A stretch of DNA of 64,000 bases from NCBI GenBank assembly GCA_947624675.1, contig CANQLI010000003.1, positions 62,001 through 126,000 of the forward strand, written 5' to 3'. Source of the stretch: an uncultured Clostridia bacterium. Lineage in GTDB: Bacteria; Bacillota; Clostridia; Oscillospirales; Ruminococcaceae. The notes under the pieces are model-generated. The model was not told where the DNA came from, did not search any database, and saw only the letters and a list, made by a program, of their open reading frames with translations. The number at the start of each line of letters is the position of its first letter. Positions within the stretch are counted from its first letter, which is position 1. Positions 4,271-15,337 of this stretch are shown piece by piece. The translations under genes were made by a program, and so were the position numbers.

Positions 4271-5128
4271 ATGCCCGCAAAGTTCGGACCAGCCGGTAAC
4301 AGCGAGAGCTTTTTTCAAAAATATAAGTCATCTACCGATGCGCCTATGTATTTAAAGGAAATGGGGCTTGACTCGTATGAATATCAGTGCGGCAGGGGAG
4401 TTAAGGTGACTGATAAAACTGCTCAGACGCTTTTGGAAAACGCCAAAAAATGCGGCATTTCGCTTTCGTTACACGCACCGTATTTTATTTCTCTTTCAAG
4501 TGTTGAGGCTGATAAAAGGGACAACAGCATAAACTATATTCTTCAAAGCTGTGACGCGGCAAAGAGAATCGGCGCTCAGAGGATAGTGATACACTCCGGC
4601 TCGTGCGCAAAAATCTCAAGACAGGAAGCGCTAAAGCTTGCAGAGGACACCATTTTAAGAGCAAGGCAGACGGCGATTGAAAACGGTTTTGAAAATATAG
4701 TGTTTTGCATTGAAACAATGGGAAAGGTAAATCAGCTTGGTACCCTAGACGAGGTACTTAAGCTTTGCAGCCTCGACGATTCGTTTTTGCCGTGTGTTGA
4801 TTTCGGGCATCTTAATGCAAGAGATTTCGGCGCTATAAAAGGTAAGGAAGAGTATGAGGACATTTTAAACAGGATAGAAAATAAGCTCGGAGCAGACCGG
4901 CTTAAAATATTTCACAGTCACTTTTCAAAGATAATGTATACCGTTCCGGGTGGTGAGAAAAAGCATCTTACATTTGATGACGCTCAGGGCTTTGGTCCCG
5001 ACTATGAGCCGCTTATGGAGCTTGTTTATAAAAAGAACCTTTCACCTGTGTTTATATGCGAGAGCGCCGGGACTCAGGCAGAAGACGCACTGAAAATGAA
5101 ACAGTGTTATCTTTCTTACGGAAATTAA
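4271..5128 (+). CDS. nfo: Endonuclease IV-like AP endonuclease (TIM barrel)
   Basis: 285 residues with the metal-ligand set of endonuclease IV: H68 (LHAPYF), H108 (VIHSGS), E148 (CIETMG), D177 and H180 (VDFGHLN), H215/H217 (FHSHF) and E264 (CESAG). Endonuclease IV cuts 5' to abasic sites with a trinuclear zinc centre and repairs oxidised bases. Starts 2 nt after ruvX, so co-translated. Sequence is more divergent than classic Nfo at the N-terminus (FGPAGNS), as in the clostridial TIM-barrel subgroup; the exact substrate is inferred. Confidence 0.85.
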   Translation: MPAKFGPAGNSESFFQKYKSSTDAPMYLKEMGLDSYEYQCGRGVKVTDKTAQTLLENAKKCGISLSLHAPYFISLSSVEADKRDNSINYILQSCDAAKRIGAQRIVIHSGSCAKISRQEALKLAEDTILRARQTAIENGFENIVFCIETMGKVNQLGTLDEVLKLCSLDDSFLPCVDFGHLNARDFGAIKGKEEYEDILNRIENKLGADRLKIFHSHFSKIMYTVPGGEKKHLTFDDAQGFGPDYEPLMELVYKKNLSPVFICESAGTQAEDALKMKQCYLSYGN

Positions 5129-5155
5129 ATTTTTGATTTGAAACAGGAGCTATAT

Positions 5156-5602
5156 ATGAAAAATGTACTTGTTATACACGGTCCGAACTTAAACCTTTTG
5201 GGTGAACGAGAACCGGGAATTTACGGAAATGACGATTTTGATAGTATAAACAAAGAGATCGTCAGCCAAGCTAAACATAAGGGCTTTTTAAAATGCGAGA
5301 TTTTTCAGTCCAACCACGAGGGTGCGATAATCGACAAGCTGCACGAAGCAAGAAAATGCTTTGACGGTATCGTTTTAAATGCCGGAGCATATACTCATTA
5401 CAGCTACGCCATAAGAGACGCCATTGCGGCAATAAAGATTCCCGTTGTGGAGGTCCATCTTAGTGACATTCACGCTCGTGAGGGCTTTCGTGCGGTAAGC
5501 GTAATCAAGGATGTCTGTATTGCTCAGATCTCGGGCTATGGAAAGAACAGCTATTTTATGGGGCTTGACGCACTTATTGAATATGAGGAGAGAAAGAATT
5601 GA
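5156..5602 (+). CDS. aroQ: 3-dehydroquinate dehydratase, type II
   Basis: 148 residues, the usual length. Catalyses dehydration of 3-dehydroquinate to 3-dehydroshikimate in the shikimate pathway. Visible: HGPNLNLLG, the lid tyrosine Y23 (GIYG), N75 in LNAGAYTHYS, H101 in VHLSDIHAREGFR and R108. A TTG at 5138 would add six residues, but AGGAG lies 6 nt before ATG 5156. It ends in a 4-nt overlap with the M24 peptidase gene. Confidence 0.95.
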   Translation: MKNVLVIHGPNLNLLGEREPGIYGNDDFDSINKEIVSQAKHKGFLKCEIFQSNHEGAIIDKLHEARKCFDGIVLNAGAYTHYSYAIRDAIAAIKIPVVEVHLSDIHAREGFRAVSVIKDVCIAQISGYGKNSYFMGLDALIEYEERKN

Positions 5603-6663
5603 ACGGTATAATAAGGCTTCAGGAATCGCTTAAGGATGACGAGTGCGCTCTGTTTACAGATGAGGTAAACAGGCGGTATTTTACAAAGATGAAGTCGTCC
5701 GCAGGAGCAGTTTTGATCTTTAAGCAGGCGGCATTTCTCATAATAGATTTCAGGTATTACGAAAAGGCAAAAAAACAGGTGACCGACTGTGAGGTCATAG
5801 AGCAAAACAGGCTTTATCATCAAGTCAATGAACTCATCAAGAAGCACGGTGCGGGAAGAGTAGTTGTTGACGAGAATTCGGTAACTCTCTCGGAATTTTT
5901 TTCACTTAAGGATAATCTGAAGGCGTCAGTTGTACAAAAAAGCGGTCTTTGCAAGACGGTCTGTGCGCTCCGCGAGGTAAAGCATGAGGACGAAAAAGAA
6001 AAAATCATCAGAGCTCAGAGGATAGCTGAAAGAGCATATAACGAGCTTTTAAATTTCATAAGTATCGGAAAAAGCGAAAGGGAGATCGCCCTTGAGCTTA
6101 ACAGGCTTATGTTTAGTTTCGGTGCGGAGGACATATCGTTTGAGACTATTGCGCTTGGCGGAAAAAACACATCTGTTCCTCACGGAACGCCCAGCGAGTA
6201 TAAGCTTCAGAAGGGCGACCTTTTGCTTCTTGATTTCGGCGCGGTTTATGACGGCTATCACAGCGATATGACGAGAACGCTTGCAGTCGGTGAGATAGAT
6301 GACAAAAAAGCGTTTGCTTACAGCACCGTTTTGTCGGCACAAGAAGCGGCTATCGATAAAATTATGAGCGGAGCTAGGTGCTCAGATATTGACAAGGCTG
6401 CGAGAGATATTATTGATTCCGCAGGCTTTGTAGGGCGCTTCGGTCACTCCTTCGGACACGGAGTAGGGCTTGAAATACACGAGTCTCCAAATGTATCGCC
6501 TAACAACGAAACACGCCTTAAAAGCGGTATGGTAATAACAGCGGAACCGGGAGTTTATTTTGAGGACGAGTTCGGTATCCGTATAGAGGATTTTGGTATT
6601 GTGACAGATAACGGCTTTGAGAATTTTACTAAAGCAGATAAAAATTTGACAATAATCAAATAA
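5599..6663 (+). CDS. M24 metallopeptidase, Xaa-Pro aminopeptidase/dipeptidase
   Basis: 354 residues: an N-terminal creatinase-like domain (~1-125) and a pita-bread catalytic domain. The dinuclear metal ligands are all present: D212, D223, H287, E316 and E330 (in LDFGAVYDGYHSDMTRT, GHSFGHGVG, TAEPGVY and IRIED). Such enzymes release N-terminal residues before proline. The start is a TTG overlapping the aroQ stop codon by 4 nt, with GAGGAG upstream. In many Firmicutes this gene sits between aroQ and efp, as here. Confidence 0.92.
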   Translation: MNGIIRLQESLKDDECALFTDEVNRRYFTKMKSSAGAVLIFKQAAFLIIDFRYYEKAKKQVTDCEVIEQNRLYHQVNELIKKHGAGRVVVDENSVTLSEFFSLKDNLKASVVQKSGLCKTVCALREVKHEDEKEKIIRAQRIAERAYNELLNFISIGKSEREIALELNRLMFSFGAEDISFETIALGGKNTSVPHGTPSEYKLQKGDLLLLDFGAVYDGYHSDMTRTLAVGEIDDKKAFAYSTVLSAQEAAIDKIMSGARCSDIDKAARDIIDSAGFVGRFGHSFGHGVGLEIHESPNVSPNNETRLKSGMVITAEPGVYFEDEFGIRIEDFGIVTDNGFENFTKADKNLTIIK

Positions 6664-8324: not shown

Positions 8325-9511
8325 TACATATTCTTTACAGTCTCTATAAGCTCTTCCGCTTTATCTGTCTGTTCCCACTTAACGCCAAGGTCTTCTCTTC
8401 CCATATGTCCGTATGCTGCAAGGGGTCTGTACTGAGGCTTTCTTAAATCAAGCGTTTCTATGATCGCAGATGGACGAAGATCAAAAACCTTCCTTACTGC
8501 AGCCGATAATTTTTGTCTGTCAACCGACGAAGTTCCGAATGTGTTTATGTCTATCATTACAGAAACGGGAGATGCAACACCGATAGCATAAGCAAGCTGT
8601 ACCTCGCATTTTTTTGCAAGAGATGCGGCAACTATATTCTTTGCGACATATCTTGCCATATAAGCTGCTGAGCGGTCAACCTTTGTGGGGTCTTTTCCGG
8701 AGAATGCTCCGCCTCCGTGACGGCCCATTCCTCCGTAGGTGTCAACTATTATCTTTCGTCCCGTAAGACCTGAGTCGCCCATAGGACCGCCGACAACGAA
8801 TCTTCCGGTAGGGTTTACAAAATATTTTGTTTTATCGTCCAATAACTCGGACGGTATTACCTCTTTTATAACAAACTCTATAATGTCCTCTCTGATTTTT
8901 TCAAGTGAAATATCTTCGGAATGCTGTGAGGATATTACGACAGTATCTACACGGATAGGTCTGTCATTTTCATCGTATTCGACACTTACCTGACTTTTTC
9001 CGTCAGGGCGAAGATATGGCAAGACACCCGTCTTTCTGACTTCTGTAAGACGCTTTGCAAGCTTGTGAGCGAGGCTTATCGGAAGCGGCATAAGCTCAGG
9101 AGTTTCATCACAAGCGAAACCGAACATCATACCCTGATCTCCTGCGCCTATATCGTTTAAATTTTCATCTCGTCCCTCGTATGAGTTGTCAACACCCATC
9201 GCTATATCGGGAGATTGTTTATCAATCGTAGCAAAAACCGCACAGGTATTTGCATTAAAGCCGAAGCTGTCATCCGTATATCCTATCTCAGAAACCGTTT
9301 TGCGAATAACAGAGGGAATATCTACCTGTGCTTTTGTTGAAATTTCTCCCATACACATTATCATTCCGGTAGTAGCGACAGTTTCACAGGCAACCCGTGA
9401 ATAGGGGTCCTGCTTTAACAGCTCATCGAGCACCGCATCTGAGACCGCATCACAAATTTTATCCGGGTGTCCCTCTGTTACTGACTCTGATGTGAAAATA
9501 TATTTTGACAT
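8324..9511 (-). CDS. metK: S-adenosylmethionine synthetase
   Basis: 395 residues, the family length. Makes SAM from methionine and ATP. Signatures: [12 protein letters not shown] near the N-terminus, the GAGDQG motif, and [19 protein letters not shown] in the C-terminal half. It is transcribed alone from a TTGACA promoter through a SAM-I riboswitch, so SAM represses its own synthesis. Confidence 0.98.
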
Positions 9512-9889: not shown

Positions 9890-9917
9890 TTGACAAATTC
9901 TGAAATTGTGCTATAAT
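9890..9917 (+). promoter_or_regulatory. Promoter of tRNA-Leu
   Basis: Consensus TTGACA (9890-9895), 16-nt spacer, consensus TATAAT (9912-9917). A leader of about 95 nt precedes the tRNA and contains GCTTAATT/AATTAAGC (9957-9964 with 10000-10007). The DNA between 9745 and 9889 shows no gene. Confidence 0.85.
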
Positions 9918-10018
9918 AGTAAAGCACTCTGAATTTGAGTGTTGTTTTACGGATAAGCTTAATTAAAAGCCCGTCTCGGTTTTGTGTTTACCGTGTAAAA
10001 ATTAAGCACATTATATTT

Positions 10019-10105
10019 GCAGCTGTGGCGGAATCGGCAGACGCGCTAGCTTGAGGGGCTAGTGGGAGCAATCTCGTGCGGGTTCAAGTCCCGCCAGCTG
10101 CACCA
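10019..10105 (+). tRNA. tRNA-Leu (GAG)
   Basis: 87 nt including an encoded CCA. Acceptor GCAGCTG pairs with CAGCTGC. The anticodon stem CTAGC/GCTAG encloses loop TTGAGGG, giving anticodon GAG. A long class II variable arm (GAG-CAAT-CTC) and the T-loop GGTTCAAGTCC confirm leucine. A terminator follows directly. Confidence 0.97.
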
Positions 10106-10106
10106 T

Positions 10107-10144
10107 ATCGTCGCAGACTTTGTATCGTTTGCGACGATTTTTTT
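10107..10144 (+). terminator. Terminator of tRNA-Leu
   Basis: ATCGTCGCA/TGCGACGAT, 9-bp stem with a 14-nt loop and seven T residues. From here to the splB start (about 255 nt) I see no credible gene. Confidence 0.88.
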
Positions 10145-10372
10145 GTAGTATCATATCTCACTCACGCTTTTGCTTTTCTTTTCAAAACAGGTCACGCTTG
10201 CTCCCTCTACTCACATACAACCTTTTTGAAATTTTGCCATCTAACTTTTTTATCTTTAAAGAGAGTAGGCTCTGCTCAAAAAGCTGAATTTACACTACAT
10301 ATAGCTTCTGTATATCGACATTTATGCTTTGATATACAGTGTGATTATTATCGCCAAATCGGGAAATATAAT

Positions 10373-10391
10373 CCTATTGTATCATAATAGG
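10373..10391 (+). promoter_or_regulatory. Small dyad covering the splB ribosome site
   Basis: CCTATT (10373-10378) and AATAGG (10386-10391) flank a 7-nt loop. The 3' arm contains the AGG of the presumed ribosome site for the GTG start at 10400. Could be an operator or an RNA hairpin limiting translation. Confidence 0.35.
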
Positions 10392-10399
10392 AAAAGAGT

Positions 10400-11410
10400 G
10401 TGTTTCTTATGAAGCCTTCATTTGACTGTGTTTATTTTGAGCCTGCCGCGCTTGAATATCCGCTCGGTCGTTATCTTAAGGAAAAATATGCTTCTCTGCC
10501 GTGGATAGAAATACAGAATCACAACAATATTCCGCAGCTTCGTTCTGCTTCTAACAGGGATTTTGTGCGGCTTAAGCGACACCTTATCATCGGTGTGCGT
10601 AAGACACATAAGTATACGGAAAACCATAAGGTTTCTGATTTTCTGGTGCCATATACTTCATCCGGCTGTTCTGCTATGTGTTTATACTGTTATCTGGTCT
10701 GTAACTACAACAAATGTGCGTATCTTCGGGTCTTTGTAAACCGCGAGGAGATGATGAATAAGCTTGTCAATAAAGCTAATGCGGACCCATGGCGTCATGT
10801 GTTTGAAATTGGCAGCAACAGTGATTTGATTCTTGAAAACACCGTTACTAATAATCTTCCCTGGACTGTTGAGGAATTTGCCCGCCGCGCCGACGGAAAG
10901 CTTACATTTCCAACAAAGTTTGATATGGTAGAACCCTTGTTAGGCTTGGATCACCGTCAAAAGATCATCTTCCGTATGAGCGTCAATCCGCAGGAGCTTA
11001 TCCGTAAAATTGAGATAGGAACCTCACCATTACCGGCTCGTATTCAGGCTGTAAATGCTATGTGTGATGCAGGGTACCCTGTCGGCTTGCTGATAGCTCC
11101 AATTATACTTGTGCCCGGTTGGGAGAACTTGTACGAGGAGCTACTTATAACGCTTTCGGATAAACTAAGCGATGATGTCAAACGCAGCGGATTCTTAGAG
11201 TTGATTTTTATGACTTACAGTTTTGTGCAAAACGCCATTAACAGTGAAGCGTTTCCTTCATTACCTCCTTTATATCAACCAGATCAGATGATCGGACGCG
11301 GAAGGGGAAAGTACCGTTACCGTGAGAACTTACAGAAAGAAGCGGGAAAAATTCTTCTTGATATGATCAAAAAATATCTTCCTAAGATGACAATAAAATA
11401 TATTTCGTAA
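10400..11410 (+). CDS. splB: Spore photoproduct lyase homologue (SplB family radical SAM)
   Basis: 336 residues. SplB repairs the UV lesion 5-thyminyl-5,6-dihydrothymine in germinating spores. The N-terminal YFEPAALEYPLG and IIGVRKT blocks and the radical SAM cluster motif C90-x3-C94-x2-C97 match the family, as do the flanking tyrosines Y96 and Y98. The conserved cysteine that donates hydrogen (C141 in B. subtilis, in FEASCTSD) is Ser139 here (FEIGSNSD). GTG 10400 has AGGA 7 nt upstream; ATG 10409 is the alternative. Single gene next to tRNA-Leu, bounded by terminators; possibly acquired. Confidence 0.85.
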   Translation: MFLMKPSFDCVYFEPAALEYPLGRYLKEKYASLPWIEIQNHNNIPQLRSASNRDFVRLKRHLIIGVRKTHKYTENHKVSDFLVPYTSSGCSAMCLYCYLVCNYNKCAYLRVFVNREEMMNKLVNKANADPWRHVFEIGSNSDLILENTVTNNLPWTVEEFARRADGKLTFPTKFDMVEPLLGLDHRQKIIFRMSVNPQELIRKIEIGTSPLPARIQAVNAMCDAGYPVGLLIAPIILVPGWENLYEELLITLSDKLSDDVKRSGFLELIFMTYSFVQNAINSEAFPSLPPLYQPDQMIGRGRGKYRYRENLQKEAGKILLDMIKKYLPKMTIKYIS

Positions 11411-11456
11411 TAATAAAAAGTAATTTATACTTAATAAATATAACCAAATTTCTAAG

Positions 11457-11492
11457 TACCGATATTAGCAAAAGCTTTAGTCGGTATTTTTT
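11457..11492 (+). terminator. Terminator after splB
   Basis: TACCGA (11457-11462) pairs with TCGGTA (11481-11486) around an AGC-AAAA-GCT inner hairpin, followed by TTTTTTA. Confidence 0.75.
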
Positions 11493-11510
11493 ATAATATA
11501 AATGTGCTGA

Positions 11511-11606
11511 CTTGTTTAATTATGAATAAATAATGAACATTGTAAATATTTTATTACAAAACATAAGTTATTTTATGAAGAATGTACGTTTGCGTACATT
11601 TTTTCC
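11511..11606 (+). repeat. Intergenic repeat element, copy 1, with 20-nt dyad
   Basis: Gapless 96-nt match (77 identical by hand alignment) to the reverse complement of 36973-37068. The last 50 nt are the most conserved (45 identical) and contain AATGTACGTTTGCGTACATT (11581-11600), an 8-bp dyad with a TTTG loop, followed by TTTTCC. A shared ACATTGTAAA and CATAAG/TATAAG spaced like -35/-10 boxes lie upstream. No gene overlaps it. Could be a small transcription unit, a terminator or a protein-binding site. Confidence 0.8.
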
Positions 11607-11732
11607 CTAAAATCGCCTGTAAGTGAAAGAGTTTTTTTCGACTAAAATTTATACAATGACAAGAGATAAACTACAACATATTTGTTTGTGTTTTATTCTT
11701 AGGTATTTTTCGCTTAAACACATTATCTGTTA

Positions 11733-11761
11733 TTGACATATTAACAGTTTTATTTTAAAAT
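11733..11761 (+). promoter_or_regulatory. Promoter of the dockerin carboxypeptidase gene
   Basis: TTGACA (11733-11738), 17-nt spacer, TAAAAT (11756-11761), about 36 nt before the GTG start. Confidence 0.78.
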
Positions 11762-11796
11762 CAAGATGTATCATTTTTATATCGGAGATGATTTTT

Positions 11797-14091
11797 GTGA
11801 AAAGGTTGATGTCTGTGATTACTGCGGTGGCTGTATTTATGTCGCTTACAGTATGTGTTTTTGCAACAGCAGAAAATAAACCTGTGCCGGATTTTAAACT
11901 TAATACAGAATCGATGCTGGTTGCGAATCTTGACACAGATGAAGTGTATTTCTCTCAGAATTCAGATGTCAAGAGGGTGATGGCGTCCACTACTAAGATT
12001 ATGACCTATATCGTTATAGCGGAAACGGTTGATGATCTTGAAAACACTATGATAACAATAGAGCAGAAACCGATAGATGATGTTTCGGGACAAGGCGCTT
12101 CTATGGCGGGATTTCAGAATCATATCGGCGAGAGCTATTCGGTACTTGATGTTCTGTACGGTATGATGCTTCCGTCGGGTTGCGATGCCGCCGAGATACT
12201 TGCGTATTATGCAGGCGGTGGAGATGTTATGAAGTTTGTTGATATGATGAACGCTAAGGCGGATGAGCTTGGCTGTGAGAATACACATTTCAACGACCCC
12301 CACGGATTGTCGGACGAGAATCATTACACCACGGCTGAGGATCTGTATAAAATAACAAAATATGTGCTAAAAATGCCGTATTTTACAGAGATCGTAAATG
12401 AGGAGTTTTATACTTTACCGGGAGATACCTATCCTATCGTAAACACAAACTATCTTATAGATGACATAAGCGGTGGACTTTATTATTACAGATATGCTAC
12501 CGGTATCAAGACAGGCTATACCTCACTTGCGGGAAGGTGTCTTGTGTCAACAGCGAAAAAGGGAGATACTAACCTTTGCTGTATCGCCCTTGGCGGCAAG
12601 TATGACGAAGAGACAAATTATGTTAACTTTGCTATGCTTGATTCGGCAAAAATACTTGACTGGACTTTCGCTAATTTTACCGGCACCATAGAAGTCTCGT
12701 TTGACACGATGTATAAGTCTGTTCAGGTAGGCGATAAAGCTCACCTAACCGCAAATATAGGAAAAAGCAATGTCAATGAAAAGCCTGAGATAAAATGGTC
12801 GTCGTCCGACACAAGTGTCGCTGAGGTCGATCAAAACGGTGTTGTAACGGCGAAATCTTTGGGAAAAACAGTCATAAAGGCTGAGGCACAGACGGGTGAT
12901 TTTGCTGTCTGCAATGTATCCTGCGGCTTTTATAACGGTATTGATGTTTCATCAAGACTGGGTGATTTTGTTGATGGTGTGAAAAATCCAATAGACTGGA
13001 CTAAGGTAAAGCAAAGCGGAATTGATTTTGCGATAATCAGAGCAGGCTGGTTTGACTGGGCGCAAAATTCGTTTCAAAACGACGCTTCATTTGTTGAAAA
13101 TGTCAAGGGTGCTGTTGAAAATGATATAAACATCGGACTTAAATTTGTAGCATACGCTGATAATGCCGATGAAGCAAAACAAGAGGCTCAAAACCTTATA
13201 AAGGCAATAGATGAGTTTATACCTGAGTATAAGGATAAGCTCACATTGTCAATATCCTATGATATGGCTACATATTCTCATTATTCTGAGCTTAATAAAG
13301 ATGAGAACACAGCGATAGCCTTGGCTTTTAATGAGGTTATAAGAGAAAACGGCTATGACTGTTACTGCTTTGCCGGAAAAGCAGTGTATAAAAATATGGA
13401 TATTGAAGCACTTAAAAATGAAAATATGGGAATATGGTACAGTTACCGCCCATATATACCTGATTTTGATGAGAGTATAACGGTAAACGGGGAGTATGTT
13501 CCAGATATATGGCAGTATACCGGAACAGGCGGAATACCCGGCGCTTCTGAAAATATGTTTTCATATCAGGATATAATATATATGGCTAACGCTAATAAGC
13601 TTGACCCGCCGACTGTTGAGGCGAAACAGGTTGATAACGAAAAGGCTGTTGAAGTAAAATGGAATATGCCTGAGTACGCAATATCAGGATATTCTGTTTA
13701 CAGGTCGCAAGGGGATAGCTCTAACATAGAAAAGCTCATAGACCTTGATGTAGATGAATTGTCATACACCGATACTGATGTTGAGTTTAATGTAAGCTAT
13801 ACATACTACATAGGTGCTAAAGCGATAGATCTCCTTGACAGGGAATGCGCTGTTGAGGTAAAGGGAAACAGCGAAACAGTCACCCTTGTTAATGAACAGT
13901 CTGAGCTTATCGGAGATATAAACAAGGACGGAATTCTGACAACTGTTGATGTCGGGATCATAAATTCCTTAGCTAAGGGCGTTGAGGACTATACACAGGA
14001 AGAGCTGCTGATCGCGGATGCAAACAAAGACGGCATAATAACCACCGTTGATGTTGGAATAATAAACAGCATTGTAAAGAGTGCGGCGTAA
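11797..14091 (+). CDS. Secreted S11 D-Ala-D-Ala carboxypeptidase with Big2, GH25-like, FN3 and dockerin modules
   Basis: 764 residues. Order: signal peptide (~1-24); serine carboxypeptidase S11 (~30-295) with SxxK S64-K67 and KTG 238-240, while the SxN motif reads SGC (127-129); Big2 domain (~302-374, WSSSDTSVAEVD); GH25 lysozyme-like domain (~380-595) starting GIDVS (D383), but the DxE acid pair reads YDMA (488-491); FN3 (~603-692); type I dockerin (703-762) with two calcium repeats GDINKDG and ADANKDG each followed by TTVDVGIIN. It should trim peptidoglycan stem peptides and dock to a cohesin scaffold or surface protein. GTG 11797 is preferred to ATG 11788, because GGAG abuts that ATG. Own promoter and terminator; no cohesin in this window. 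Confidence 0.9.
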   Translation: MKRLMSVITAVAVFMSLTVCVFATAENKPVPDFKLNTESMLVANLDTDEVYFSQNSDVKRVMASTTKIMTYIVIAETVDDLENTMITIEQKPIDDVSGQGASMAGFQNHIGESYSVLDVLYGMMLPSGCDAAEILAYYAGGGDVMKFVDMMNAKADELGCENTHFNDPHGLSDENHYTTAEDLYKITKYVLKMPYFTEIVNEEFYTLPGDTYPIVNTNYLIDDISGGLYYYRYATGIKTGYTSLAGRCLVSTAKKGDTNLCCIALGGKYDEETNYVNFAMLDSAKILDWTFANFTGTIEVSFDTMYKSVQVGDKAHLTANIGKSNVNEKPEIKWSSSDTSVAEVDQNGVVTAKSLGKTVIKAEAQTGDFAVCNVSCGFYNGIDVSSRLGDFVDGVKNPIDWTKVKQSGIDFAIIRAGWFDWAQNSFQNDASFVENVKGAVENDINIGLKFVAYADNADEAKQEAQNLIKAIDEFIPEYKDKLTLSISYDMATYSHYSELNKDENTAIALAFNEVIRENGYDCYCFAGKAVYKNMDIEALKNENMGIWYSYRPYIPDFDESITVNGEYVPDIWQYTGTGGIPGASENMFSYQDIIYMANANKLDPPTVEAKQVDNEKAVEVKWNMPEYAISGYSVYRSQGDSSNIEKLIDLDVDELSYTDTDVEFNVSYTYYIGAKAIDLLDRECAVEVKGNSETVTLVNEQSELIGDINKDGILTTVDVGIINSLAKGVEDYTQEELLIADANKDGIITTVDVGIINSIVKSAA

Positions 14092-14106
14092 AGCTTAAAA
14101 AAATAT

Positions 14107-14146
14107 CCCCTATGGTATTTTCTTTATATACCATAGGGGAGTTTTT
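14107..14146 (+). terminator. Terminator after the dockerin gene
   Basis: Perfect 11-bp stem CCCCTATGGTA/TACCATAGGGG, followed by AGTTTTT. Confidence 0.88.
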
Positions 14147-14203
14147 CTAATGCCCGCATAACCGTAATTGTGCTTTAAACTTATGAGGAATGTTTATTCA
14201 GAT

Positions 14204-15337
14204 TTATTTGTATCTGTTAAGAAGCGCGTGTATTTTCTTTGCAGGGTCAATAACTTTTTCAATAGACATATCGTGATTCAGAGCGGCGATGAAGTAAGCT
14301 ATGTATTTTGAAACATCGACCTCGTAAAACCACTCTCTTTCAAGAAGCTGTGGAGTGCGATATGTGAGGTTAGTTCCGAATACACCGTCTAAAATACCTT
14401 CGTTATATGCCTTGTCAAATGTGTCGAGACCGTTTGTGAAAATAGCATAGGTTGCGTATGCGTAGATCTTTCTCGCATTTCTCTTTTTTAGCTCGTGTGC
14501 AATATCAAGAACAGATTCACCCGAGGATATTATATCGTCGGCAATAAAAATATCCTTTCCTGCAACATCGTTACCCATATATTCGTGAGCGACGATCGGA
14601 TTTCGACCGTTTACTATTATAGAATAATCACGCCTTTTGTAGAACATTCCAAGGTTTACCTCAAGAACGGATGCGTAATACATATTTCGGTTTATAGCGC
14701 CTTCATCGGGGGAAACTACCATAAAATGTTCTTTGTCTATATTAAGATCCTTAATGTTTCTGAACATAGACTTTAATACCTGATAGGACGGTATTACATT
14801 GTCAAATCCCATCAGCGGTATGGCGTTCATAACCCTTGGATCGTGAGCGTCGAATGTAAGTATATTTGAAACTCCCATTGCCTCAAGCTCCTGAAGAGCG
14901 ACCGCACAGTCCAGTGATTCCCGATAGCTTCTTTTATGCTGTCTTCCACCATAAAGTATAGGCATTATCACATTTATTCTGTGTGCCTTGCCGCTTGCCG
15001 CCTGAATTATCCTTTTGAGGTCCTCAAAGTGATCGTCCGGCGACATAGAATTTATATTGTCAAAAAGCTTGTACTTACAGCTGTAATTTCCAACATCAAT
15101 GAGTATAAACAGATCCTTTCCTCTCACTGTCTGGCGGATAATTCCCTTACCGTCGCCTGAGGCAAATCTTGGGCACGAAACATCTATCATATAGTCGTTT
15201 TCACCAAGTCCCGATTCTTTTGCCCATTGAGTAAGATATCCGCTTATTTTACCGCCTAACTCTTTTGAAGAGTCCATAGCTATTATCCCCAGAGGTGCAA
15301 CCTGAGTCTGTCTGTCAAACAATGATGTGTTTTCCAT
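14204..15337 (-). CDS. prs: Ribose-phosphate pyrophosphokinase
   Basis: 377 residues, longer than the usual ~315. Makes PRPP from ribose 5-phosphate and ATP for nucleotide, His and Trp synthesis. The PRPP-binding loop is DDIISSGESVLD, preceded by VVSPDEGAINR and NVIMPILYGGRQHKR-type active-site segments. The frame is open upstream to 15553, but GAGGT lies shortly before ATG 15337 and the protein starts there (MENTSLF). This longer variant occurs in clostridia. Divergent from murD. Confidence 0.92.
   Translation of the reverse strand: MENTSLFDRQTQVAPLGIIAMDSSKELGGKISGYLTQWAKESGLGENDYMIDVSCPRFASGDGKGIIRQTVRGKDLFILIDVGNYSCKYKLFDNINSMSPDDHFEDLKRIIQAASGKAHRINVIMPILYGGRQHKRSYRESLDCAVALQELEAMGVSNILTFDAHDPRVMNAIPLMGFDNVIPSYQVLKSMFRNIKDLNIDKEHFMVVSPDEGAINRNMYYASVLEVNLGMFYKRRDYSIIVNGRNPIVAHEYMGNDVAGKDIFIADDIISSGESVLDIAHELKKRNARKIYAYATYAIFTNGLDTFDKAYNEGILDGVFGTNLTYRTPQLLEREWFYEVDVSKYIAYFIAALNHDMSIEKVIDPAKKIHALLNRYK

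Follow-up and report, generated by a model that had tools for sequence, protein, structure and literature searches.

The 64,000-nucleotide stretch of DNA analysed here (the window), from an uncultured gut bacterium of the Clostridia, encodes a secreted cell-wall peptidase with a docking module at the place that a membrane anchor has in its relatives. The best reading of the compared sequences is that a covalent membrane anchor was swapped for a cohesin–dockerin anchor. We hypothesize that the D,D-peptidase acts close to the membrane on the peptidoglycan of its own cell, which it would trim (or re-link); there its dockerin would most likely bind the single cohesin of a membrane-anchored protein, L001, and this pairing would stand in for the C-terminal transmembrane (TM) helix carried by the same enzyme in other lineages. 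We put the chances of this explanation at about even. What is unexpected here is that the anchor was exchanged and that the genome has a one-cohesin membrane stub to match.

The gene occupies positions 11788–14091 of the forward strand, on which all window features described below also lie, and is a frame open throughout, 767 codons long counted from the ATG at 11788. An in-frame GTG at 11797, which would give a protein of 764 amino acids, is the likelier start because a GGAG ending at 11787 is spaced nine bases from it and none from the ATG, and because the orthologue in a related genome, G001, has an ATG at the matching codon. All residue numbers are counted from 11788. A consensus scan placed a promoter-like site (TTGACA-17-TAAAAT, 11 of 12) at 11733–11761, which is weak on its own because the region holds 14 such sites against a mean of 11.2 in shuffles; an identical TTGACA stretch precedes the orthologues at loci L063 and L064. 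An inverted repeat with a T-run at 14093–14153, found by a repeat search and not included in the list from the consensus scan, is a probable terminator.

As an earlier sequence-only reading had proposed, one uninterrupted frame encodes a secreted chain of five modules. A signal peptide (approximately residues 1–28, 11788–11871), recognized from a hydrophobic segment at residues 7–25 and an A-x-A site identified by eye, precedes a Peptidase_S11 (penicillin-binding D,D-peptidase) domain (residues 35–270, 11890–12597; 152.9 bits), a Big_2 Ig-like domain (residues 304–373, 12697–12906; 42.5 bits) and a GH25-like domain (residues 382–590, 12931–13557), all three of which score over their Pfam cut-offs. 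The limits of the GH25-like domain come from the Pfam match at residues 400–585 (42.1 bits, cut-off 27) and an HMM alignment. The FN3 module claimed to follow it (approximately residues 601–700, 13588–13887) holds less firmly: the Pfam scan gave no fn3 match at E ≤ 0.1 in the window protein, and the assignment comes from four orthologues, in which the corresponding stretch matches fn3 at 20.5–23.1 bits, below the cut-off of 25.

The S11 motifs are intact (STTK at residues 67–70, SGC at 130–132 and KTG at 241–243). S11 matches among solved structures are 3mfd and 1es5, which we take to be DacB of B. subtilis and the D,D-transpeptidase of Streptomyces K15; to our knowledge, neither of these enzymes has Big2, GH25-like, FN3 or dockerin modules. 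Like the window protein, the K15 enzyme has SGC in place of SxN. Of 20 S11 loci recognized by their pattern (25 fetched), 13 have Cys for Asn at this place; four of the 20 are of the window protein's family, and outside it the count is 9 of 16. Because Cys is this frequent there in the order, SGC was not taken as the mark of a strict transpeptidase. The Pfam scan found no PBP5_C domain in the window protein. The search of the genome gave two further S11 proteins, both of which carry this domain and one of which has a TM helix at its end by eye. The missing PBP5_C agrees with the proposal that the usual C-terminal part has been replaced; what the orthologues show in its place, however, is a TM tail and not the amphipathic helix that had been supposed.

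The last module is a type I dockerin (residues 708–765, 13909–14082), assigned from Pfam, a genome search and a lineage profile. Both of its 12-residue calcium loops (residues 710–721, 13915–13950, DINKDGILTTVD; residues 744–755, 14017–14052, DANKDGIITTVD) are canonical (D-x-N/D-x-D...D). The outcome with the Pfam Dockerin_1 model (PF00404), suggested earlier as a check, depends on the search used: residues 709–759 score 19.6 bits in hmmscan, under the cut-off of 22.9, and the same dockerin scores 23.9 bits in the genome search, over it. Two dockerin-tailed orthologues scored 20.3 (under) and 23.5 (over). The lineage profile, for which 28 further dockerin frames from this genome were aligned, matches the window dockerin with 84.2 bits (E 2.1e-27), and its best stretch in five TM-tailed orthologues reaches at most 3.5 bits. 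The dockerin region also matches 11 solved sequences (E ≤ 0.1), several of them named as dockerins or cellulosomal enzymes, and has in common with the genome's other dockerins a T-T-x-D-V-G repeat pattern. Judged from its sequence, the dockerin is real, with the two well-formed calcium repeats first described for it.

The GH25-like module is degenerate. In GH25 enzymes the catalytic pair is D-x-E; at this place the window protein has D492-M493-A494 (13261–13269), and in all eight members of the family described below the catalytic Glu is missing, with A, V, S or T in its stead. The register was set by an ungapped comparison (TLPVFYDIE / TLSISYDMA) together with the L034 sequence; in the HMM alignment the pair was shifted by two residues (S-Y-D), a position at which it is disrupted as well. 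Among 29 comparison GH25 domains from the genus and the order, D-x-E is intact in 16 and not in 13. Loss of the Glu in this column rules out an active lysozyme module, so the lysozyme-like domain of the earlier reading stands as a profile match over cut-off and falls as a catalyst. The module is nevertheless under constraint, with a dN/dS of 0.09–0.10 among the three dockerin-tailed species, which fits a binding role, and it is probably a non-catalytic pseudo-lysozyme that would bind the wall or its glycan. A phmmer search of this part against solved structures returned nothing usable. A second kind of pseudo-GH25 occurs in small frames of the genus (269–307 amino acids; L075, L083 and L085–L095), where thirteen domains have E-x-T or Q-x-R for D-x-E.

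Full-length orthologues, 87% identical, are encoded in two other metagenome-assembled genomes (MAGs) of the genus, G001 and G011, so that the five-module protein is present in 3 of 15 genus genomes; the two orthologue sequences are also found in the public uncultured Clostridia MAGs Lapin-011 bin72 and Lapin-012 bin25, names ('lapin', the French word for rabbit) that suggest a rabbit host. Because the whole protein exists in three separate assemblies, a chimaeric join of separate genes, named at the outset as something that would refute the fusion, is ruled out. In total, eight members with an S11-Big2-GH25-like front were found, from a Big2-GH25 search of 394 genomes of the order, a search of 61 relatives and one public scan; 118 of the 394 order genomes matched and 12 of the better-scoring loci were read, and the weaker matches may hold further members.

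Three of the eight members (from G001, G011 and the window's own genome, G000) end in a dockerin. The other five, from G425 and from G042, G066, G085 and G129, which are members of one other genus, end in a C-terminal TM helix: a linker leads into the hydrophobic helix, and a short tail of charged residues follows it. The G425 enzyme is 61% identical in its best segment. In a tree of the S11 domain the eight members form one clade (96/95), within which the dockerin forms are a clade (100/100) whose sister is the TM-tailed G425 enzyme (98/96), and the remaining TM forms branch outside this group. As the dockerin clade is nested among TM forms, one change from TM helix to dockerin explains the pattern. 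We regard this direction of change as likely rather than proven, because the paralogues that root the tree are on long branches and because 17 fetched loci, whose active-site pattern was not recognized by the script, were dropped to leave 18 rows.

A check of the genome for cohesins, proposed along with the dockerin, returned one protein over the Pfam cut-off, the membrane-anchored surface protein L001 (267 amino acids), which has a signal peptide, one cohesin, a TM helix at residues 215–233 and a basic tail. Its cohesin scores 28.3 bits in the genome search and 26.2 in the protein scan, just over the cut-off of 24.1, and the best solved structure for the L001 family profile is 4ums, the cohesin chain of scaffoldin B (E 0.0015). 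The second of the two PF00963 matches in the genome is in a wall protein (16.4 bits, below cut-off) whose NPXTG-like tail is itself below its model's cut-off. Cohesin-like domains are found in wall proteins with NTG-type tails in G000 (L030) and in G001 (L059 and L061). No scaffoldin with at least two cohesins was found by Pfam in this draft of 49 contigs, and Pfam can miss the family, as in G011, where the cohesin has no PF00963 match and was assigned by homology. With two cohesin matches, in separate proteins and one of them below cut-off, the cellulosome-like complex that the sequence-only reading had envisaged is not supported.

Strong homologues of the L001 cohesin (E ≤ 6e-133) occur in 5 of the 15 genus genomes (G000, G001, G006, G008 and G011), and these same five are rich in dockerins, with 12–30 matches each at E ≤ 0.01. 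Among the remaining ten, G004 has a single dockerin match at this threshold and the rest have none, and all ten encode only an approximately 20%-identical membrane cohesin-like orthologue (L101–L110); that this protein is kept almost without dockerins suggests that some other role came first. We favour L001 as the putative receptor because its cohesin tracks the dockerin-rich genomes, is absent from the TM-tailed G425, though that genome has 30 dockerin matches (E ≤ 1), and is encoded about 4 kb from the enzyme in G011. Several points weigh against this anchor. The dockerin could prefer the cohesin-like domains of the NTG-tailed wall proteins, and it would have to share the L001 cohesin with approximately 29 competing dockerin proteins. 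Co-occurrence of cohesin and dockerins in five genomes may reflect shared ancestry, the three species with the enzyme forming one clade. G006 and G008 also count against it, as they have the cohesin and dockerins and the window-type enzyme was not found in them.

The dockerin repertoire of G000 is large (31 matches at E ≤ 0.1, 21 of them over cut-off, in 30 frames). Scans covered 25 of the 29 other dockerin proteins, leaving out four contig-end or very short frames, and identified five GH5, one GH30, 10 LRR_5 (adhesin-like), two transglutaminase-like, one CotH and five FIVAR proteins over cut-off. No further S11, GH25 or amidase family match was found among the 25; L016, however, has a match (29.4 bits) to PF06832, a family of penicillin-binding-protein C-termini. 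Two near-identical dockerin proteins, L022 and L023, are on very short contigs (C33 and C34), as is the cohesin-like wall protein L030 (C30), and assembly breaks may therefore hide more cohesin or dockerin genes.

Given this repertoire, the enzyme could instead, much as the sequence-only reading had it, be recruited through the NTG-tailed cohesin-like proteins to a dockerin complex that is anchored in the wall further out and resembles a cellulosome or an adhesin. The GH5, GH30 and LRR_5 proteins in the dockerin set are in line with such a complex, as are the cohesin-like stretches of the anchored proteins; however, these stretches score 16–22 bits, below the cut-off of 24.1, no two-cohesin protein was found in the genome, and D,D-peptidases work on stem peptides, which are produced at the membrane. 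We consider participation in an outer complex unlikely, and so too the coupling of wall trimming to polysaccharide digestion or attachment that it would entail. A DacB/DacF-like enzyme of sporulation, acting on the spore cortex and placed at the forespore membrane by its dockerin, appears decidedly unlikely. The best solved-structure match (3mfd, named dacB, E 6.4e-32) presumably has a spore role, a spore photoproduct lyase gene adjoins the peptidase gene here and in G001 and G011, and SpoIVA was detected in 20 of 21 genomes searched, including this one; beside the G425 gene, however, no such lyase was seen by eye among the listed ORFs or matched by blastn, and a dockerin set that also includes glycosidases and adhesin-like proteins suggests a place on the surface of vegetative cells.

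It is highly improbable that the enzyme attacks the walls of other bacteria within a dockerin-organized lytic complex ('lyticome'), as D,D-carboxypeptidases are non-lytic, the GH25 module is without its catalytic Glu, and the scanned dockerin proteins include no other S11, GH25 or amidase match. Lysozyme activity of a cellulosome and several dockerin-containing wall hydrolases, both described in the portion of a review available here, speak for this possibility (PMC6403190). The dockerin could also be a functionless passenger in this protein, since it and the FN3 module are the least conserved among the dockerin forms (67–73% and 62–68%, against 94–97% for S11) and there are signs of exchange inside the gene. 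Both calcium loops, however, are intact in all three species despite high synonymous divergence, and we think a passenger very unlikely.

The proposed anchoring of the D,D-peptidase on L001 may be one instance of something wider. Cohesin–dockerin pairing could be the general means by which this lineage fastens secreted proteins, among them wall enzymes, to the membrane without a covalent bond, with a one-cohesin membrane stub replacing the TM helix of each client; we entertain this extension but lean against it. The D,D-peptidase is a case showing the same enzyme with a TM helix and with a dockerin. If the general view is true, cohesin–dockerin pairing serves the cell's own envelope and not polysaccharide digestion alone. 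Likewise, if the dockerin binds the membrane cohesin and a TM helix can take its place, the pair would be a device by which the cell anchors its own maintenance enzymes at the surface. As the anchor is what distinguishes dockerin-bearing orthologues from those lacking a dockerin, the role of the dockerin becomes directly testable.

Dockerin-tailed wall enzymes are already known, and the window protein is a new form of them. VanY enzymes are zinc D,D-peptidases and do not belong to S11. Among the dockerin proteins of R. flavefaciens FD-1, Table 2 of PMC2930009 lists a single 'VanY protease' and a single 'Carboxypeptidase', and this bacterium is like ours in having many dockerins and secreted dockerin peptidases, one named for a wall-active class. 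FD-1 is a rumen firmicute with several scaffoldins, in contrast to what Pfam found in G000, and the consulted parts of that paper do not discuss TM-tailed orthologues of its peptidases, unlike those that mark the window family (PMC2930009). R. champanellensis, the source of the cellulosomal lysozyme activity mentioned above, likewise combines a dockerin system with peptidoglycan enzymes, and it is in this context that the consulted part of the review proposes a 'lyticome' (PMC6403190); there the reported activity is lytic, whereas in the window protein GH25 is the degenerate module and the D,D-peptidase the one whose motifs are intact. The earlier reading was right that dockerins are rare on peptidoglycan enzymes, and these two bacteria provide precedent (PMC2930009, PMC6403190).

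The architecture of L001 also has parallels. Proteins that combine one cohesin with a C-terminal TM helix have been described from Lachnoclostridium MSJ-17, H. luporum and C. cibarium, with no wall enzyme named as partner in the sections of that source used here (PMC11557425). L001 has the same architecture and differs from those proteins in matching the Pfam cohesin barely over cut-off. ScaE of R. flavefaciens is, like L001, a single cohesin acting as a surface anchor for a dockerin protein, but it is anchored by sortase (LPXTG) and holds a scaffoldin rather than an enzyme (PMC2930009, in the parts consulted). Neither an S11-dockerin protein nor a TM-to-dockerin exchange was found in the partly accessible literature searched, and the role of the dockerin on known wall enzymes is not settled in it.

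The front and the tail of the gene appear to have different histories. The dN/dS is 0.05–0.07 for S11 and 0.11–0.38 for the dockerin region, the latter being rough because synonymous sites are almost saturated in two of the three pairs compared. Taken in 50-codon windows among G000, G001 and G011, the synonymous difference is 0.07–0.48 over codons 1–600; past codon 600 (FN3 and dockerin) it is 0.58–0.72 against G000 and 0.27–0.66 between G001 and G011. The gene is thus a mosaic, with a step up at about codon 600, the GH25/FN3 boundary (window 11788–14091 against L032 and L033). Background genes give 0.54–0.74 (two S11 paralogues, a GH25-FN3 gene and, beside the 'GH25 pseudo TM' gene, an ORF that we take to be sigma-factor-like), the cohesin gene and its neighbour 0.45–0.74, and the upstream spore photoproduct lyase gene (10403–11410; PF20903, E 1.4e-61) 0.37–0.49. 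The lower synonymous difference suggests that exchange between species involved the lyase and the first three modules more recently than the FN3-dockerin tail, a signal clearest in comparisons with G000; alternatively, synonymous sites in the front part may be under strong selection.

The lyase-peptidase pair is kept at L063 (lyase 4701–5702) and L064 (lyase 4478–5614), although the downstream genes differ among the three species, and homology among the loci ends approximately 12–14 bases past the stop codon. No direct repeat of at least 18 bases was found within 9900–14400 in a search for attachment sites around the pair. A tRNA-Leu(GAG) gene lies just upstream of the pair in G000 and G001, and no tRNA was found in the G011 stretch around it; at L065 another tRNA-Leu (CAG, 9209–9295) lies downstream of a TM-tailed gene. 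A protein of 227–266 amino acids, which belongs to no clear family and in which two hydrophobic segments were recognized by eye, is encoded next to the membrane cohesin or to the distant orthologue of that cohesin (L096 2289–2984, L100 784–1467, L056 641–1357 and L101–L110). In G425, L158 (1213–3165) combines a weak cohesin-like stretch (18 bits) with a C-terminal dockerin of its own, an adaptor-like layout.
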